Position numbers and translations under genes: made by a program. 32,868 bases of DNA. It comes from an uncultured Lentisphaerota bacterium. GTDB lineage: Bacteria > Verrucomicrobiota > Lentisphaeria > Oligosphaerales > CAITYL01. The number at the start of each line of letters is the position of its first letter. Within the stretch, counting starts at the first letter, position 1. Positions 9,244-31,946 of this stretch are shown piece by piece. The stretch lies in the NCBI GenBank assembly GCA_903894975.1, contig CAITSE010000035.1, positions 1 through 32,868 on the forward strand. Direction: 5' to 3'. The notes below the pieces were generated by a model, which saw only the letters and a program-made list of their open reading frames with translations, had not been told where the DNA came from and searched no databases.

Positions 9244-9310
9244 TTGGGGCTGAAAACGGATTGCGCAAGTGCCTGTTAATGTTAAGGCCCCCGAGGCCTT
9301 GGTTTCCCCT

Positions 9311-9340
9311 TGTAGGAACGGGCGTGCCGCCCGTTTTCTT
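9311..9340 (-). repeat. dispersed GC palindrome (GGGCGGCACGCCC element), copy 1
   Basis: Read on the minus strand it contains ACGGGCGGCACGCCCGTTCCTAC, a small hairpin around GGGCG/CGCCC. Two longer plus-strand copies occur at 10996-11042 and 27546-27592. It lies just beyond the 3' end of the ankyrin gene. Confidence 0.65.
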
Positions 9341-9379: not shown

Positions 9380-10744
9380 TCATCGGCCCCGTAACGCATT
9401 CACCAGGATTGGATCCTTCAGCCAGCGTTCCGGCGTCCAGCCGGCCTGATCCGTCAGCCTGGGGTAGGCCTTGGCTTTGAGAAGCAGATGAATGGCCTCC
9501 CGCGATTGCGCGCAAAAGAGCGGGCTCCAGCCATCCACATCCTGCGCGTTGGGATAGGCGCCCCGTTCGAGCAGGATTTCCATCGCCTCGCGGGCGTCGG
9601 CCGCTACGGCGGCATGAAGGGCCGTTGCTCCCGTGGAAGTCCGGTCCACTTCGGCCCCATGATCCAGCAGCCACTTGATGCATTCCACGTCGTTGTTTTC
9701 CGCCGCGTGTTTCAAGGGCCAGTCTCCGCAACCATTGATGGCGTTGACATCCACTCTTCCGGTTTCAGCCAGCAACTGCATGATTTCCCGCGAATGGGCG
9801 GCATGAATCGGTTGGTCGCCAAACCTGTTTTCCCGGGTGGGATCAGCCCCCTTGCCAAGCAGGACGCGGGCACAGGAAAGATGATTCGATTCCGCGGCCA
9901 GGTATAACGCGGTCTCACCATCCCCGTTTCCCTCGTTTGCATCCGCCCCTAGCTCCAGCAGCCACGACAACGCCTCCCGCCGGCCGAATTCCGCCGCGAG
10001 ATGCAACGCCGTATTTCCTGACCTGTCCGCTTGCGTCAAATCCGCTCCCCGCTCCGCAAGCCATTGCATGATTTCGACCTTGCCTCGCATCAGGGCCAGC
10101 AGCCACGGCGACAGTTCGAACCGGAGATTTTTGGAATTGATCGCAGTGCTGGACGGTGAGAGCCGTTCAACTTCGGCCAAGCCCTCAAGGGCCACGGCAT
10201 GATGCAGTTCCGACCAGTGCAGCGGCGTCGGATCCGCGCCGAGGCGGATGAGGGCGCGCAAGGTCTTGAAATCACCAAACCCGAGGCAAACGCCGAGTGG
10301 GAACTCTCCGTAAGTTGACGCCGCATCCAGGCTTGCGTCAGCTTCACGCAACTGCTCGATGATGGCGCGCTTTGCCGGACCTGACGGCTGGCAGCAGGCA
10401 GACAGAAACACCGAATAGCCGGACGGGGTGATATGCTTGGGATTCCCACCCCGGCGCAACAGCAGATCCAGAAACTGTGGATCGGGAATTCTGGCGGCGC
10501 GGTGAATGGCGGTTTCCCCCAGGCTGTCAGCCGCCTCCAGGTCAGAGCCGGCATCCAGCAGGAACTGGACCGCCTCCAGCGTCACGGTGGGCCCCCGCCA
10601 ATGGGAAAATCCCTCCGCCTGTTCAAGCGCGAACACCAGGGCGGTCCGCTCGGCAGCGTTACGCGCATTGATATCAGTACCCTGGCTCAAGGCAAGGGTC
10701 ATGGCTGTAACGTCGCCGCGTGAAGCTGCCGCGTGGAGTTGCAT
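9380..10744 (-). CDS. ankyrin-repeat protein
   Basis: A protein of 454 residues built almost wholly of ankyrin repeats, a helix-turn-helix protein-binding scaffold. Roughly ten to twelve units are visible, the clearest being SGNTALHLAAEFGRREALSW, DGETALYLAAESNHLSCARV, TGATALHAAVAADAREAMEI and DGWSPLFCAQSREAIHLLLK. No enzymatic domain, signal peptide or membrane segment is evident from the chosen start, so it is probably cytoplasmic; its partner is unknown. The frame stays open 134 codons further upstream, but that part runs through a dispersed repeat (10996-11042) and is not ankyrin-like. The ATG at 10744, where the first repeat begins (MQLHAAASRGDV), is therefore preferred, though no clear Shine-Dalgarno precedes it. 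It is transcribed against its neighbours and isolated from them. Confidence 0.85.
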   Translation of the reverse strand: MQLHAAASRGDVTAMTLALSQGTDINARNAAERTALVFALEQAEGFSHWRGPTVTLEAVQFLLDAGSDLEAADSLGETAIHRAARIPDPQFLDLLLRRGGNPKHITPSGYSVFLSACCQPSGPAKRAIIEQLREADASLDAASTYGEFPLGVCLGFGDFKTLRALIRLGADPTPLHWSELHHAVALEGLAEVERLSPSSTAINSKNLRFELSPWLLALMRGKVEIMQWLAERGADLTQADRSGNTALHLAAEFGRREALSWLLELGADANEGNGDGETALYLAAESNHLSCARVLLGKGADPTRENRFGDQPIHAAHSREIMQLLAETGRVDVNAINGCGDWPLKHAAENNDVECIKWLLDHGAEVDRTSTGATALHAAVAADAREAMEILLERGAYPNAQDVDGWSPLFCAQSREAIHLLLKAKAYPRLTDQAGWTPERWLKDPILVNALRGR

Positions 10745-11290
10745 GGGAAATGTGGGCTGTTCCGATCCGACGTTTTTCCCCGCATCTTGATGTGGACGGG
10801 GTTTTGCGGGAAAACTGCGGCGGAATGATTTTTCTGAATGCGAATACCTTACTGCGATTTTCGCGGGTTCGTGCGGATCCCGTTTTTTTCGTACTGACAA
10901 ATTGTAGGAACGTGGTTGCACCACCTTTCCGCGGCATTGCCGAAAGCCGCGGCGGTGAACGTGCCGATACCCGCCGGGGCCTTGTGCCACCCATCGAACC
11001 GAATCGGCGCGTGGGAACACGGGCGGCACGCCCATGCCTACATTTGTCCTTATCCTCACATGCTCCCGGCTAAGACGGAGATTCCACCATATGCGGCGGA
11101 CCGGGTTGCCTGTCCCGGTCGTTTCTGACAAGGCGGCAGTCTGCACGCGTGCTACAGTTTGCTTTCCGTACGTTCATGATGGAGTCCACGAGTTCTTTCG
11201 CGCACGATTCGCGTAATTTCGCGAACTACCGGTTGCTGATGAATCATTCAGGATCGCGCCCGGGAAACGGACTTGCCGGAGAGGATGCCT
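10745..11290. other. intergenic region between divergent ankyrin and secreted-protein genes
   Basis: 546 bp between divergent genes. It contains one dispersed palindromic element (10996-11042) and a degenerate 9-10-bp-period stretch around 11197-11226 (TTCGCGCACGATTCGCG type) resembling the arrays at 29714-29832. It should hold both promoters, but I found no pair of -35/-10 boxes with acceptable spacing. No convincing small gene is seen. Confidence 0.4.
10996..11042 (+). repeat. dispersed GC palindrome element, copy 2
   Basis: 47 bp matching 27546-27592 with about five differences. Its centre is ACGGGCGGCACGCCC, a self-complementary core, ending in GCCTACA. It falls inside the unlikely upstream extension of the ankyrin frame, which supports the shorter start for that gene. 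Confidence 0.75.
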
Positions 11291-13301: not shown

Positions 13302-13440
13302 TGCCGCGCCGCCGTTCCATGGGTCCCATACGTCGCATAGGTCCCATAAGTCCCATTCCTCCGATCCGGCGGCGCGCGTTCGGGGCATGGGACCTATGGG
13401 ACGAATAGGACGAATGCGACGTATGGGCCGGCGCGCCGCC
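13302..13440. repeat. 9-bp-period inverted-repeat element (CCCATANGT type), copy 1
   Basis: The left arm (about 13318-13355) is a run of 9-bp units of the form CCCATACGT, CGCATAGGT, CCCATAAGT. The right arm (about 13386-13428) is the complementary run ATGGGACCT, ATGGGACGA, ATAGGACGA, ATGCGACGT. A GC-rich 30-bp centre lies between them. A transcript could form a stem of over 30 bp. The same element, including the centre, is present in inverse orientation at 31422-31546. The rest of the 13268-13576 gap shows nothing else. Confidence 0.85.
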
Positions 13441-14275: not shown

Positions 14276-14419
14276 TTTGTAATGTTGGCTCGAGGCCGGG
14301 AGCGTGGCGAGCGCATGGCAGTCCATGGCGGCGGACATGGGAATCCTGAGCGCGCGCGATGAGGGAGGAGGACGAGTGCCGGTCCTGGCGCCGCGGCAAA
14401 ACGTCTGCGGCCTGCGGAA

Positions 14420-14478
14420 GATCCGTCAGATCGGTCAGATCCGACCGATCTGACGGATCTGACGGATCTGACGGATCG
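14420..14478. repeat. 9-bp tandem repeat forming an inverted repeat (GATCTGACG type)
   Basis: Six and a half contiguous 9-bp units all begin with GATC: two GATCNGTCA units, one GATCCGACC turning unit, then three GATCTGACG units and GATCG. Bases 14420-14441 are complementary to 14447-14468 with one mismatch, giving a 22-bp stem and 5-nt loop. It lies about 50 bp before the rpsL promoter. The flanking 14276-14419 shows no gene. Confidence 0.85.
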
Positions 14479-20817: not shown

Positions 20818-21090
20818 GTGAGCCGTTCACTGAAAAAAGGTCCCTTTGTGGACAGCCACCTTACGGAAAAGGTGGAAAAAGCCATCAAGACTGGCTCGAA
20901 ACTGCCGATCAAGACGTGGTCGCGCCGTTCCATGATCCTGCCGGAATTCGTGGGTCAGACGTTCGCCGTGCATAACGGCAAGACGTTTGCCAACGTTTTC
21001 GTGACCGAGAACATGGTCGGCCACCGCCTGGGTGAATTCGCGATGACTCGCGTGTTCCGCGCCCACGGCACGGTTTCCGGCAAGAAGTAA
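20818..21090 (+). CDS. rpsS: 30S ribosomal protein S19
   Basis: A 90-residue small-subunit head protein. It shows [40 protein letters not shown] and [20 protein letters not shown], the standard S19 pattern. The start is GTG at 20818, immediately after the rplB stop, with GGAGG (20804-20808) 9 nt upstream. It is the last gene of the operon: rplV and rpsC, which nearly always follow, are missing, and two strong hairpins, the second a clear terminator, come next. Confidence 0.97.
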
Positions 21091-21125
21091 GCCCGGATAC
21101 TCCTCCTCTCACTCCGCCGCTTTCG

Positions 21126-21151
21126 TCGGCCGGCCGCTTTTGGCCGGCCGA
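21126..21151. other. perfect 10-bp hairpin downstream of rpsS
   Basis: TCGGCCGGCC (21126-21135) pairs with GGCCGGCCGA (21142-21151) around a GCTTTT loop. No T-run follows on either strand, so it is more likely a 3'-end stabilising or pausing structure than a terminator by itself. Confidence 0.6.
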
Positions 21152-21174
21152 AGGAATGCGAACGGATTCTCTGC

Positions 21175-21220
21175 AAACGCCGGAAGCTGCCCCAACGCAG
21201 CCTCCGGCGTTTTGTTTTTT
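21175..21220 (+). terminator. rho-independent terminator ending the rpsL-rpsS operon
   Basis: Bases 21175-21184 pair with 21203-21212 (10 bp), one A-C mismatch, then 21186-21190 with 21197-21201 (5 bp) around a 6-nt loop. It is followed by a T-rich tract (TTTTGTTTTTT, 21210-21220). This shows that transcription really ends after rpsS. Confidence 0.92.
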
Positions 21221-21260
21221 GTCAGCGGAGCGGGGGCGTCCTGCCCCGCCCGGGTGGGGG

Positions 21261-21295
21261 GCGGGTGTCCACACCCGGCCAAACGGGCCGGCGGG
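21261..21295. repeat. 35-bp dispersed repeat, copy 1
   Basis: An exact 35-base match to the reverse complement of 31779-31813. It contains GGTGTCCACACC and CGGCCAAACGGGCCG, each partly self-complementary. With the rpsS terminator it accounts for most of the 21091-21396 gap. Confidence 0.85.
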
Positions 21296-21396
21296 CATCT
21301 TGCCCGCCGATTTCATCCGTTGCGTCGTCATACAGGTGTCGCCACCCTGCGGAGATTGCGCTCCGGCGCTTCTGCGGGGCGTGACAGGCTCGCCGT

Positions 21397-22563
21397 TCAT
21401 TTTTTCTTTGCGTTGACGCGCATGGGGCCGGGGTTGCCCATCCGGGGCGAGACCGGCGGCGGCGCATCCGCCGGCCGGAGTTCGGGAAGGCCGGAGAAGA
21501 AGATCGTGCCCTGCAATGAGCGCACACGGATATTGCGGAAACTGGCGGAGGTGTTCCATGTGCCTACGCCGACCCGGCCGGTCGGCCCAGCCCCGGCGGA
21601 AGTGTCTTCGACGTCGCACACCGGCTTCCCGTCCAGCCAGACCTGCACATGCCGGCCTTCGCAGCGGATGCGGACGACATACCATTTGTCGGACTCGATC
21701 ATGCCCGGCTGCAGCGGTCCCAGCAGGCGCTTAGCCCCGCCGGCGCGGCGCTCCAGCCCGAACTTGCGGTTGTTCCAGCCGCCGAAGTTGAAGCCGTAGA
21801 AGGTTTGATTGTCCTGCGCCCGGAAAAGAATCAGGAACCCTTCGCTGCCGCCATCCTTCCGCGCCTCCAGGGAGAACTCGTAATCCGTCCAGGCGGGATT
21901 GCCGAAGGTGCAGGCGGCTTCGGACATGGAGCTGGTCTGGGCCAAAACGCCGCCTGTCACTCTCCAGTATCCTGTGCTGGCGACGGTTATGACAGAGCCT
22001 GCGTCCGTTTTTTTTGTCACTTGCGCCGCAGGAGAATGGCGCCCGGTTTCCGACGGGCGCGATTTTTTTGGGGTGAGGTTTGACCGGCCCGACCAGACCG
22101 ACCAGACGAGGAAGATCAGGCCGGCGGCGCTGGCAAAGATGATGATTCTGTGCCACGTGATCCGGCCGGCGGGACAGGCCGTGCCGGTTTCGGCGTTTCC
22201 GCCGCCGGCGGCCGGCGATCCGGGATCTGCGGCGGGCCGGACGACCGGGGAGGGCAGCGCGGGCATTCCCTCCAGTTCCAGGCGGAGGTTGGTGTCCCCG
22301 ACAAGCAGCACATCGCCATGGGCGAGAAGGCCTTCATCGACTCGTCGGCCGTTGACGTCGGTCCCGTTCACGCTTTTGAGATCCTTGAGCCACCAGCCGT
22401 CGCCGCGATCCTCCAGGTGCAGATGCCACCCCGAGGTGGTCAGGTCCGGGATCACAATATCGTTGCCGGGGTTCCGGCCGATCGTCACGGTTGTGCCGCT
22501 ACCCAGCGGGTACGTCCTTCCCGCATCGGCGCATTCCGGCTGTACCACCAGTCGGGCGTCCAT
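21397..22563 (-). CDS. FHA domain - transmembrane helix - GH51-type jelly-roll domain protein
   Basis: A single-pass membrane protein of 388 residues. Residues about 22-100 form a forkhead-associated (phosphothreonine-binding) domain: TVTIGRNPGNDIVIPD, a Ser/His pair in TTSGWHLHL, and KSVNGTDVNG. A low-complexity Pro/Ala linker precedes a hydrophobic helix at about 138-158 (IIIFASAAGLIFLVWSV). The outer part, 186-350, has EGFLILFRAQDNQTFYGFNF, GGWNNRKFGLE and KWYVVRIRCEG, resembling the jelly-roll accessory domain of GH51 arabinofuranosidases and DUF1080-like proteins. FHA would face the cytoplasm and the glycan-binding-like domain the outside. ATG 22563 is preferred over an in-frame TTG at 22581; GGAG lies about 10 nt upstream. 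Domain identities are by pattern; the ligand is unknown. Confidence 0.8.
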   Translation of the reverse strand: MDARLVVQPECADAGRTYPLGSGTTVTIGRNPGNDIVIPDLTTSGWHLHLEDRGDGWWLKDLKSVNGTDVNGRRVDEGLLAHGDVLLVGDTNLRLELEGMPALPSPVVRPAADPGSPAAGGGNAETGTACPAGRITWHRIIIFASAAGLIFLVWSVWSGRSNLTPKKSRPSETGRHSPAAQVTKKTDAGSVITVASTGYWRVTGGVLAQTSSMSEAACTFGNPAWTDYEFSLEARKDGGSEGFLILFRAQDNQTFYGFNFGGWNNRKFGLERRAGGAKRLLGPLQPGMIESDKWYVVRIRCEGRHVQVWLDGKPVCDVEDTSAGAGPTGRVGVGTWNTSASFRNIRVRSLQGTIFFSGLPELRPADAPPPVSPRMGNPGPMRVNAKKK

Positions 22564-22683
22564 CCTTGCTGTTCTCCACAAGACGGCGCCGGACTTTCTG
22601 GAAATCCATCGGCGCGCGTGATGTCTGGCAACGTATTCCGACTCCTCTTTGTGACAAGCCGGAAATAACGCAAAGATCGCTTA

Positions 22684-27464: not shown

Positions 27465-27545
27465 GGTGTAATCGTTTTATTATAAACTTATTGCATCGTA
27501 AAAAAAACGAGCGAACTCCGGCCGGGATGCGTGTTACCGCGCCGC

Positions 27546-27592
27546 GAACCGAGACGACGCGCGGGAACACGGGCGGCACGCCCGTGCCTACA
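27546..27592 (+). repeat. dispersed GC palindrome element, copy 3
   Basis: A 47-bp near-copy (about five differences) of 10996-11042, with core ACGGGCGGCACGCCCGT. It ends only 3 bp from the stop codon of the NamZ-like gene, so it may act as part of that gene's 3' end. Confidence 0.75.
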
Positions 27593-27595
27593 GGG

Positions 27596-28705
27596 TCACT
27601 CCGGATACAGCCGCGCCGGATGCGTCCGCGCCGCGAACTCCGCCAGAACGGGGCGCAACGACTCCAGGTAGGCAAGAATGTCTAGGGCGCGCAGGCGTTC
27701 CGGGGTCCAGGCGCCGTTGTCCAGCCACACGGCAAAGCCGGGCTTGAGTTCGAACTCTTGCGGGTACAGCCGCGCCAGTTCCTGAAGAATGACGAACTGG
27801 GTCCGGACCGGGTCCGGCCGCGCCGCGGCGTCGAACATCAGATGCACACCGCCGCAGACCTGGCCGGCGAACTTGTTGAAGGCCGGCGCAAAATAGATCT
27901 CGCGGAAATACACGCCCGGCAGCTTCCGGGCGTTCAACGCCGCGGCCAGCGTTTCCGGCCGAATGAAGGGCGCGCCGATGAACTCGAAGGGCCGGCAAGT
28001 GCCGCGCCCTTCCGCCACCGTAGTCGCCTGGAGAATGCCGGTGCAGGCATAGGCCAGGATGGAATCCGGCGAGGGCAGATTGGGCGACGGCGGAATCCAG
28101 GGCAGTCCCGTGGCCGCCCACGGCATGCTCCGCGTCCAGCACTGCGCCGGCAGCACATGCAGGTCCAGTTCCGGGAACTGTTCCTGTTTCAGCCACAGAC
28201 CGAGTTCGCCATGGGTCAGCGCCGGCAGCATCGGAAAGGGCAAAGGGAAAAACTGCGCCGCCACCGGCCCCGCCGCGCCGAGCCAAGCCAGGGGAGACGG
28301 CCGGTCAAGCACGACCACGGCCTTGCCGCGCACCGCCGCCGTGGCCATCAGTTCGGCTAGAGCCCAGTGAAAGGTATAAGCGCGGTGGGAGGCGTCCTGG
28401 GCGCAGAACACCGCCACGTCCACCGCCTCCCAGAACGCGTCCGGCACGGTCTTGCGCTCACCGTAAAAACTGAACACCGGCAGGCCGGTGGCGCGGTCGG
28501 CGTAGGATTCCACATGCACGCCATCCTGGAGTTCGCCGCGCAGGCCGTGTTCCAGCGCCAGGAAGGCGCGCACGTCACCGGCGACGGCCGGGCACTCGGT
28601 CAGCGCCGCCTGCCGCTGCGGCAGCCACGCCGCCGGCGTCACGGCCAGCCCGACGCGCCGGGCGCCGATGCTTTTGTGCAACGCCTCCAGATCAAACGTA
28701 ACCAT
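27596..28705 (-). CDS. NamZ-type exo-beta-N-acetylmuramidase (DUF1343)
   Basis: A 369-residue member of the family whose characterised member, B. subtilis NamZ, removes terminal N-acetylmuramic acid from peptidoglycan fragments. The family motifs appear in order: ALEHGLRGELQDG, ATGLPVFSFYG, AYTFHWALAELM, VVLDRPSPL (Ser where Asn is usual), LTHGELGLW, PSPNLPSPDS, VAEGRGTCRPFEFIGAPFI and AFNKFAGQVCGGVHL. The ATG at 28705 has AAAGGGA about 7 nt upstream. The N-terminus (MVTFDLEALHKSIGARRVGL) lacks any signal peptide, while many relatives are exported; it may act on recycled muropeptides in the cytoplasm. It is convergent with the caspase-like gene. Confidence 0.88.
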   Translation of the reverse strand: MVTFDLEALHKSIGARRVGLAVTPAAWLPQRQAALTECPAVAGDVRAFLALEHGLRGELQDGVHVESYADRATGLPVFSFYGERKTVPDAFWEAVDVAVFCAQDASHRAYTFHWALAELMATAAVRGKAVVVLDRPSPLAWLGAAGPVAAQFFPLPFPMLPALTHGELGLWLKQEQFPELDLHVLPAQCWTRSMPWAATGLPWIPPSPNLPSPDSILAYACTGILQATTVAEGRGTCRPFEFIGAPFIRPETLAAALNARKLPGVYFREIYFAPAFNKFAGQVCGGVHLMFDAAARPDPVRTQFVILQELARLYPQEFELKPGFAVWLDNGAWTPERLRALDILAYLESLRPVLAEFAARTHPARLYPE

Positions 28706-31421: not shown

Positions 31422-31546
31422 GGCGCGCACTCCCATAAGTCCCATAGGTCCCATTCGTCCCATGCCCCAAGCGCGCGCCGCCGGGTCGGAAGAATGGGAC
31501 GTATGGGACCTATGCGACGCATGGGACTCATGGGACGGCGGCGCGA
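31422..31546. repeat. 9-bp-period inverted-repeat element (CCCATANGT type), copy 2
   Basis: Units CCCATAAGT, CCCATAGGT, CCCATTCGT, CCCAT on the left (31431-31463) face ATGGGACGT, ATGGGACCT, ATGCGACGC, ATGGGACTC, ATGGGACGG on the right (31494-31538). The GC-rich centre is the reverse complement of the centre of the copy at 13302-13440, so the two elements are in inverse orientation about 18 kb apart. Confidence 0.85.
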
Positions 31547-31735: not shown

Positions 31736-31778
31736 AGGAAGGGAGAGGAACCAGGCACGAAGTTCGCCGGGCTGGAAG

Positions 31779-31813
31779 CCCGCCGGCCCGTTTGGCCGGG
31801 TGTGGACACCCGC
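31779..31813. repeat. 35-bp dispersed repeat, copy 2
   Basis: An exact reverse complement of 21261-21295. The remaining stretch to 31946 is pyrimidine-rich (CTTTCTCCTTCTCTACCCC type) and shows no gene or clear promoter. Confidence 0.85.
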
Positions 31814-31946
31814 CCCCCCTTTTACGGCCGCACACAGGAGAGGCCTTGATCTTCGCGGCTCCTCCTTCATGTTTGCTTCCTTTCTCCTTCTCTACCCCCT
31901 TTGCCGCACTTTGCGGCCTTCTGTTCAACCAGCCCCCATCCATCCC

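Follow-up and report, generated by a model that had tools for sequence, protein, structure and literature searches.

Results

The gene and the layout of its product

The stretch of DNA analysed here (the window; 32,868 nt of contig CAITSE010000035.1 from an uncultured Lentisphaerota bacterium) carries on its minus strand, at 21397..22563 including the stop codon, a gene for a 388-aa protein in which an FHA domain and a jelly-roll module are joined through a predicted transmembrane (TM) helix. The open reading frame (ORF) runs from an ATG at 22563 to a stop codon at 21397-21399, and a candidate GGAG, found by eye, stands upstream of the ATG at 22574-22577. GC3 of the ORF is 0.79, and its codon adaptation relative to the neighbouring genes is 0.565, compared with 0.298 and 0.292 in the two shifted frames; an overlapping plus-strand ORF reached 0.353, again lower than the real frame. 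Codon usage was coding-like in all three parts of the protein, and the 388-aa ORF is a real coding gene.

From the N-terminus, the protein consists of the FHA domain (aa 1-97, with the Pfam core at aa 26-89; 22273..22563), delimited using Pfam, alignment and model, a Pro/Ala/Gly-rich low-complexity linker (aa 98-139; 22147..22272), the TM helix predicted from hydrophobicity (aa 140-158; 22090..22146), a second, basic linker (aa 159-197; 21973..22089), a GH51-type, CBM66-like jelly-roll module of family PF06439 that extends through an SLxGxxxxxGLP strand (aa 198-360; 21484..21972), and a C-terminal tail with the stop codon (aa 361-388; 21397..21483), in which homology beyond GLP is unsupported; all of these lie on the minus strand. 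The helix, IIIFASAAGLIFLVWSVWS, has a mean Kyte-Doolittle value of 2.13 and is the single hydrophobic helix between the FHA domain and the module that the original prediction had described. The three motifs it had listed (EGFLILF, FGGWNNR and KWYVVRI) are all present in the C-terminal module, and its N-terminal FHA domain was confirmed by the Pfam match and the pocket residues given below. The E-values of the FHA and PF06439 matches exclude chance. By eye, the end of the TM helix (VWSVWS) is encoded by two perfect 9-nt direct repeats, CGACCAGAC on the plus strand, at 22090-22107; their unit length equals that of the intergenic arrays of the window (14415-14477 and 31494-31537), which may be chance.

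Genome context

The source genome comprises 4.46 Mb in 376 contigs and is 89.45% complete. It gave 16 Pkinase matches and a single PF06439 match, which is the window gene, and its six other FHA proteins have the architectures FHA-PEGA, FHA-GAF-cyclase, double FHA, FHA with a C-terminal helix, FHA-GGDEF and FHA-T2SSE. No GH51 catalytic domain was found in this 89.45% of the genome, while the same search was positive in 3 of 14 control genomes.

The gene stands by itself; rpsS, on one side, is transcribed towards it, and an aldo/keto reductase gene, on the other, away from it. Further neighbours encode a Gfo/Idh/MocA oxidoreductase, a caspase-domain protein (PF00656; 25691-27256) and a NamZ exo-muramidase (27596-28705), and a protein with many ankyrin repeats is encoded at 9380-10822. 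At 20818-21399 the S10-type ribosomal operon ends after rpsS, and rplV lies on another contig (G000:C367), reflecting either a broken operon or an assembly effect. Dispersed repeats were also observed: a 55-nt intergenic inverted pair (21256-21310 and 31764-31818), the first copy of which is downstream of the gene and outside the protein, a 115-nt inverted repeat pair (13305-13419 and 31431-31545), and a hairpin-like element, GGCGTGCCGCCCGT, at 9308-9338, 11015-11042 and 27545-27592.

The FHA domain retains the residues of the phosphothreonine pocket

Pfam placed PF00498 at aa 26-89 with an E-value of 1.9e-14 and 54.3 bits, against a gathering cut-off of 20.7. The best PDB sequence match was the Rv1747 FHA domain (E 3e-11), and the AlphaFold model of the domain (pLDDT 91.4) came closest in fold to FHA domains from the mycobacterial proteins FhaA and GarA. 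An alignment of 33 FHA rows showed G29, S44 and H47 to be invariant and R30, S64, N66, G67 and N71 to be nearly invariant. All of these are present in the window protein (signature GR..S..H..NG..N). Because the pocket residues are kept and the predicted fold is nearest to the FhaA and GarA FHA domains, phosphothreonine binding by this domain is plausible.

The protein also matched PF16697, a YscD model of type III secretion systems (T3SS), with an E-value of 3.9e-14. YscD/CT664-type inner-membrane proteins of T3SS have an FHA-fold cytoplasmic domain before a TM helix. Since each of the six further FHA proteins encoded in the genome matched PF16697 as well, the match is non-diagnostic and uninformative on type III secretion, and a YscD-type identity was rejected.

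The C-terminal module is related to modules of GH51 arabinofuranosidases

Pfam assigned aa 198-348 to PF06439 (3keto-disac_hyd / DUF1080) with an E-value of 4.8e-17 and 63 bits (gathering cut-off 26.8). The domain had been predicted to be DUF1080/LamG-like: DUF1080 is PF06439, while the likeness to LamG holds at the level of the fold alone, Laminin_G_2 scoring an E-value of 0.24, below the cut-off. Matches to farnesoic acid methyltransferase, DUF6250 and Laminin_G all fell below the Pfam cut-off and were discarded. The GH51 catalytic domain PF22848 is absent from the protein according to Pfam.

The closest relatives, 43-51% identical in their best segments, are mostly modules inside GH51 arabinofuranosidases; the identity to a Phycisphaerales module in GH51 context (L082) is 50% over 172 aa. 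When ten module-bearing ORFs were scanned, five contained PF22848, and the other five had a GH51 C-terminal domain only (a contig-end fragment), GH43, BNR repeats, Sel1 repeats or a module-only partial frame. A scan of named genomes returned 25 loci with 27 module ORFs, in 20 of which a GGLWG segment ending in RSFE or similar directly precedes the module (by eye); this segment forms the N-terminal portion of the GH51 proteins concerned. According to the record titles, the hosts belong to the Planctomycetota, Verrucomicrobia, Lentisphaeria, Kiritimatiellae, Armatimonadetes and a few others. The homology continues past the Pfam boundary through SLxGxxxxxGLP, the real score being reached by none of 1958 scored shuffles. 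These relatives and the extended homology bear out the designation as a GH51-type jelly roll. The tail after GLP was not accepted as homologous to the GH51 linker, as 96 of 1998 shuffles scored equally well or better, although by eye MAFFT aligns the two.

Two further arrangements were noted. One ORF (L043:691-2190) has a signal-like N-terminus, the same module and Sel1 repeats without a catalytic domain, another non-enzymatic use of the module. In GH51 proteins of a C-terminal type (L099:2267-4663, L100:1163-6175, L103, L097:195-3086 and L044:1-2169), the last module strands (GxxGxGTWxTxxEYxDxxV..DGxxLY) precede the rest; compared with the window module and with modules of the N-terminal GH51 type, this arrangement resembles a circular permutation.

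The module was modelled with a pLDDT of 88.1, and its nearest solved fold was CBM66 (Z 20.7, rmsd 1.8 over 151 residues), whereas solved 3-keto-glycoside enzymes, including BT2157, gave Z 13.3-13.7. The structure search thus ended in a carbohydrate-binding family, in line with the original prediction, for which a non-carbohydrate family would have been contrary evidence. A profile search with the module family matched CBM66 (E 1.6e-15) and the uncharacterised DUF1080 structure 3imm (E 0.01), and its match list contained no characterised 3-keto enzyme. As noted in the part available of PMC5673643, one and the same domain can be annotated both as DUF1080 and as CBM66. The higher Z-score for CBM66 than for the catalytic 3-keto enzymes suggests that the module is likelier to be a binding module than an enzyme.

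The module has diverged from its GH51 relatives

A tree built from 25 modules placed the window module among the GH51 modules, with fork supports of 90/75 with L082, 94/86 with L082 and L087, and 81/79 for a group of twelve rows, none of them starred; its nesting inside the GH51 modules is thus weakly indicated. Its end branch measured 1.26, compared with a median of 0.36. At least 80% of 22 GH51-type rows agree at 66 positions; the window module keeps 55 of these and differs at 11. The changes include W257G and W372S, both at positions with W in 22/22 other GH51-type rows, R217A (R in 20/21 other rows) and H268F (H in 19/22). In a leave-one-out count, 19 of 21 other rows lost a smaller fraction of conserved positions than the window module did. 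The residue count leaves aside L009 and L106, which are not of GH51 type, and the leave-one-out count also leaves aside L038, which is partial. L037 and L008 are the same sequences as L088 and L089, and one of each was used in alignment A4; a joint full-length alignment (A3), in which FHA rows were placed on the module, was not used. The changed residues could mean that sugar binding was lost. Together with the long end branch, they suggest that the module has probably been under a different constraint since it left the enzyme.

The combination was found once

No second protein with both an FHA domain and this module was found among the candidates listed per genome in 47 genomes of the order, among the best candidates (at most nine per genome) in 197 genomes of the class, or among the best (at most four per genome) in 387 genomes of the phylum; the three genome sets overlap. 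A scan of named genomes with the window protein alone found no relative, and none of the 25 loci found with alignment A2 had an FHA domain in the module ORF, in a scan that may omit records of the source genome itself. When profiles from which the window row had been left out were run across 114 loci, 69 ORFs carried the module and 34 carried FHA, and the two sets overlapped only in the window gene, which appears twice among the loci (as L001 and L081). The parts are ordinary and their combination was found only in the window protein. Since a single copy is known, conservation of the architecture is unusable as evidence of function.

FHA-TM proteins with another ectodomain recur in the order. 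PEGA was present in 10 of the 11 long FHA-TM ORFs scanned (L002, L010, L011, L014, L016, L018, L022, L023, L032 and L034; about 600-740 aa), the eleventh being a double FHA protein (L004), and two FHA-TM ORFs from outside the order (L061 and L063) had no named ectodomain. No description of the FHA-TM-PEGA architecture was found in the open-licence literature searched.

Membrane topology

The 15 residues on either side of the helix carry a net charge of +1 towards the FHA domain and +3 towards the module. This is the reverse of what the positive-inside rule predicts for a cytoplasmic FHA domain with the module outside, a topology that the flank charges thus mildly disfavour. The FHA side was the more positive one in 7 of 10 FHA-TM-PEGA proteins. 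In five FHA ORFs (L005, which belongs to the source genome, L017, L021, L025 and L062), a helix ends at most 10 residues from the C-terminus, which suits a cytoplasmic FHA domain, topology here being a prediction. Relatives of the module sit in proteins with signal-like N-termini (by eye). On the basis of the FHA chemistry, these N-termini and the five C-terminal-helix ORFs, the FHA domain would lie inside and the module outside.

Discussion

We favour, with a probability of roughly one half, the reading that the gene encodes a single-span, membrane-anchored FHA adaptor that may hold or cluster a phosphorylated partner at a glycan, as judged from sequence and structural models. The FHA domain would face the cytoplasm and bind a threonine-phosphorylated partner of one of the Ser/Thr kinases of the genome; the module would face the periplasm or the cell surface and bind an envelope or environmental glycan; and the protein would hold the phosphorylated partner at the glycan or cluster it there. 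Most likely, an FHA-TM protein of a type frequent in the order gained the module from a GH51 gene, after which the module would have diverged fast.

A tentative alternative, which we would put clearly behind the adaptor reading, is that the module serves as a tether rather than a sensor: it would bind an envelope polysaccharide, or another protein, and so hold the window protein in place while the FHA domain scaffolds phosphorylated partners there, without any ligand-triggered signal. The prevailing long FHA-TM architecture of the order, FHA-TM-PEGA, speaks for it, as does the lack of an enzymatic output domain; moreover, PEGA and Sel1 domains located after a TM helix are treated as peptidoglycan-associating in the text available of PMC7159879. 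However, the same evidence fits a sensor equally well, and the relatives of the module belong to degradative enzymes, not to cell-wall anchors.

It is unlikely that the gene is a recent chimera whose module is decaying and non-functional. The orphan architecture, the long end branch and the lost conserved residues would suit such decay, but the frame is intact with coding-like codon usage throughout, five-sixths of the conserved positions are kept (55/66), and the module folds with high predicted confidence. More improbable still is a membrane-tethered enzyme, that is, an active DUF1080 3-keto-glycoside hydrolase/eliminase regulated or recruited by the FHA domain: the Pfam family name, the nearby Gfo/Idh/MocA oxidoreductase gene and the precedent of the DUF1080 proteins BT2157 and CCNA_01705, for which activity on 3-keto-sugars is described or proposed (PMC9007349, in the portion available), are outweighed by the closer CBM66 fold, the profile search that found CBM66 and no characterised 3-keto enzyme, the position of the Gfo/Idh gene outside any operon with the window gene, and close relatives that are modules of enzymes with a GH51 catalytic domain of their own.

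Returning to the adaptor reading, we infer any signal through the protein. An FHA domain is a phospho-reader, and since it only reads, the window protein alone has no output. A bolder version, which we regard as rather unlikely, is a glycan receptor without a kinase, in which a sugar-binding module derived from an arabinofuranosidase forms the ectodomain of a phosphothreonine reader, and contact with plant or matrix polysaccharide outside would alter where, or whether, kinase-phosphorylated proteins gather inside. If a sensor reading were true, the protein would link extracellular glycan to Ser/Thr phospho-signalling in a bacterium through a reader domain, and an accessory module of a CAZyme would have been reused as a receptor; if it is an anchor only, it widens the range of ectodomains among the FHA-TM proteins of the group by one. 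The FHA domain and the module, separable and well folded in prediction, make a small testable construct.

Among known systems, CBM66 (Bacillus subtilis levanase SacC; Cohnella xanthanase CsCBM66) is the nearest solved fold and profile match, although the window module is only about 20% identical to it; in the text available, CBM66 ligands vary between fructan ends and xanthan (PMC11002231). The N-terminal modules of GH51 arabinofuranosidases from Planctomycetota, Lentisphaeria, Kiritimatiellae and Verrucomicrobia (e.g. L082, L083, L091 and L008) share the strand order and the homology through SLxGxxxxxGLP. In those enzymes the module sits between the GGLWG..RSFE segment and the CBM4_9/catalytic part, whereas in the window protein it follows an FHA domain and a TM helix, lacks a catalytic domain and is changed at W257, R217 and H268. 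The YscD/CT664 proteins of T3SS (PF16697) resemble the window protein in the FHA-fold cytoplasmic domain ahead of the TM helix, but the window protein keeps the phosphothreonine residues and its C-terminal domain is different.

The FHA-TM-PEGA proteins of the order share an N-terminal FHA domain, a linker, a single TM helix and a non-enzymatic C-terminal domain with the window protein, but they are longer and their ectodomain consists of PEGA repeats, not a jelly roll. The original prediction was made without knowledge of a described protein with this function. No protein combining FHA with DUF1080, or with a carbohydrate-binding module, was found in the open-licence literature searched, but Ser/Thr kinases with a periplasmic DUF1080 are published for the Planctomycetota (PMC11032199, in the part available). 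As far as that text goes, these proteins likewise combine a cytoplasmic phospho-signalling domain, one TM helix and a periplasmic DUF1080. They carry a kinase, the writer, whereas the window protein carries FHA, the reader, and the comparison is made at the level of the DUF1080 family. Given the recurrence of FHA-TM-PEGA in the order and the published kinase-TM-DUF1080 proteins, we class the window protein, read as a membrane-anchored FHA adaptor whose ectodomain derives from GH51, as a new ectodomain on a known plan.
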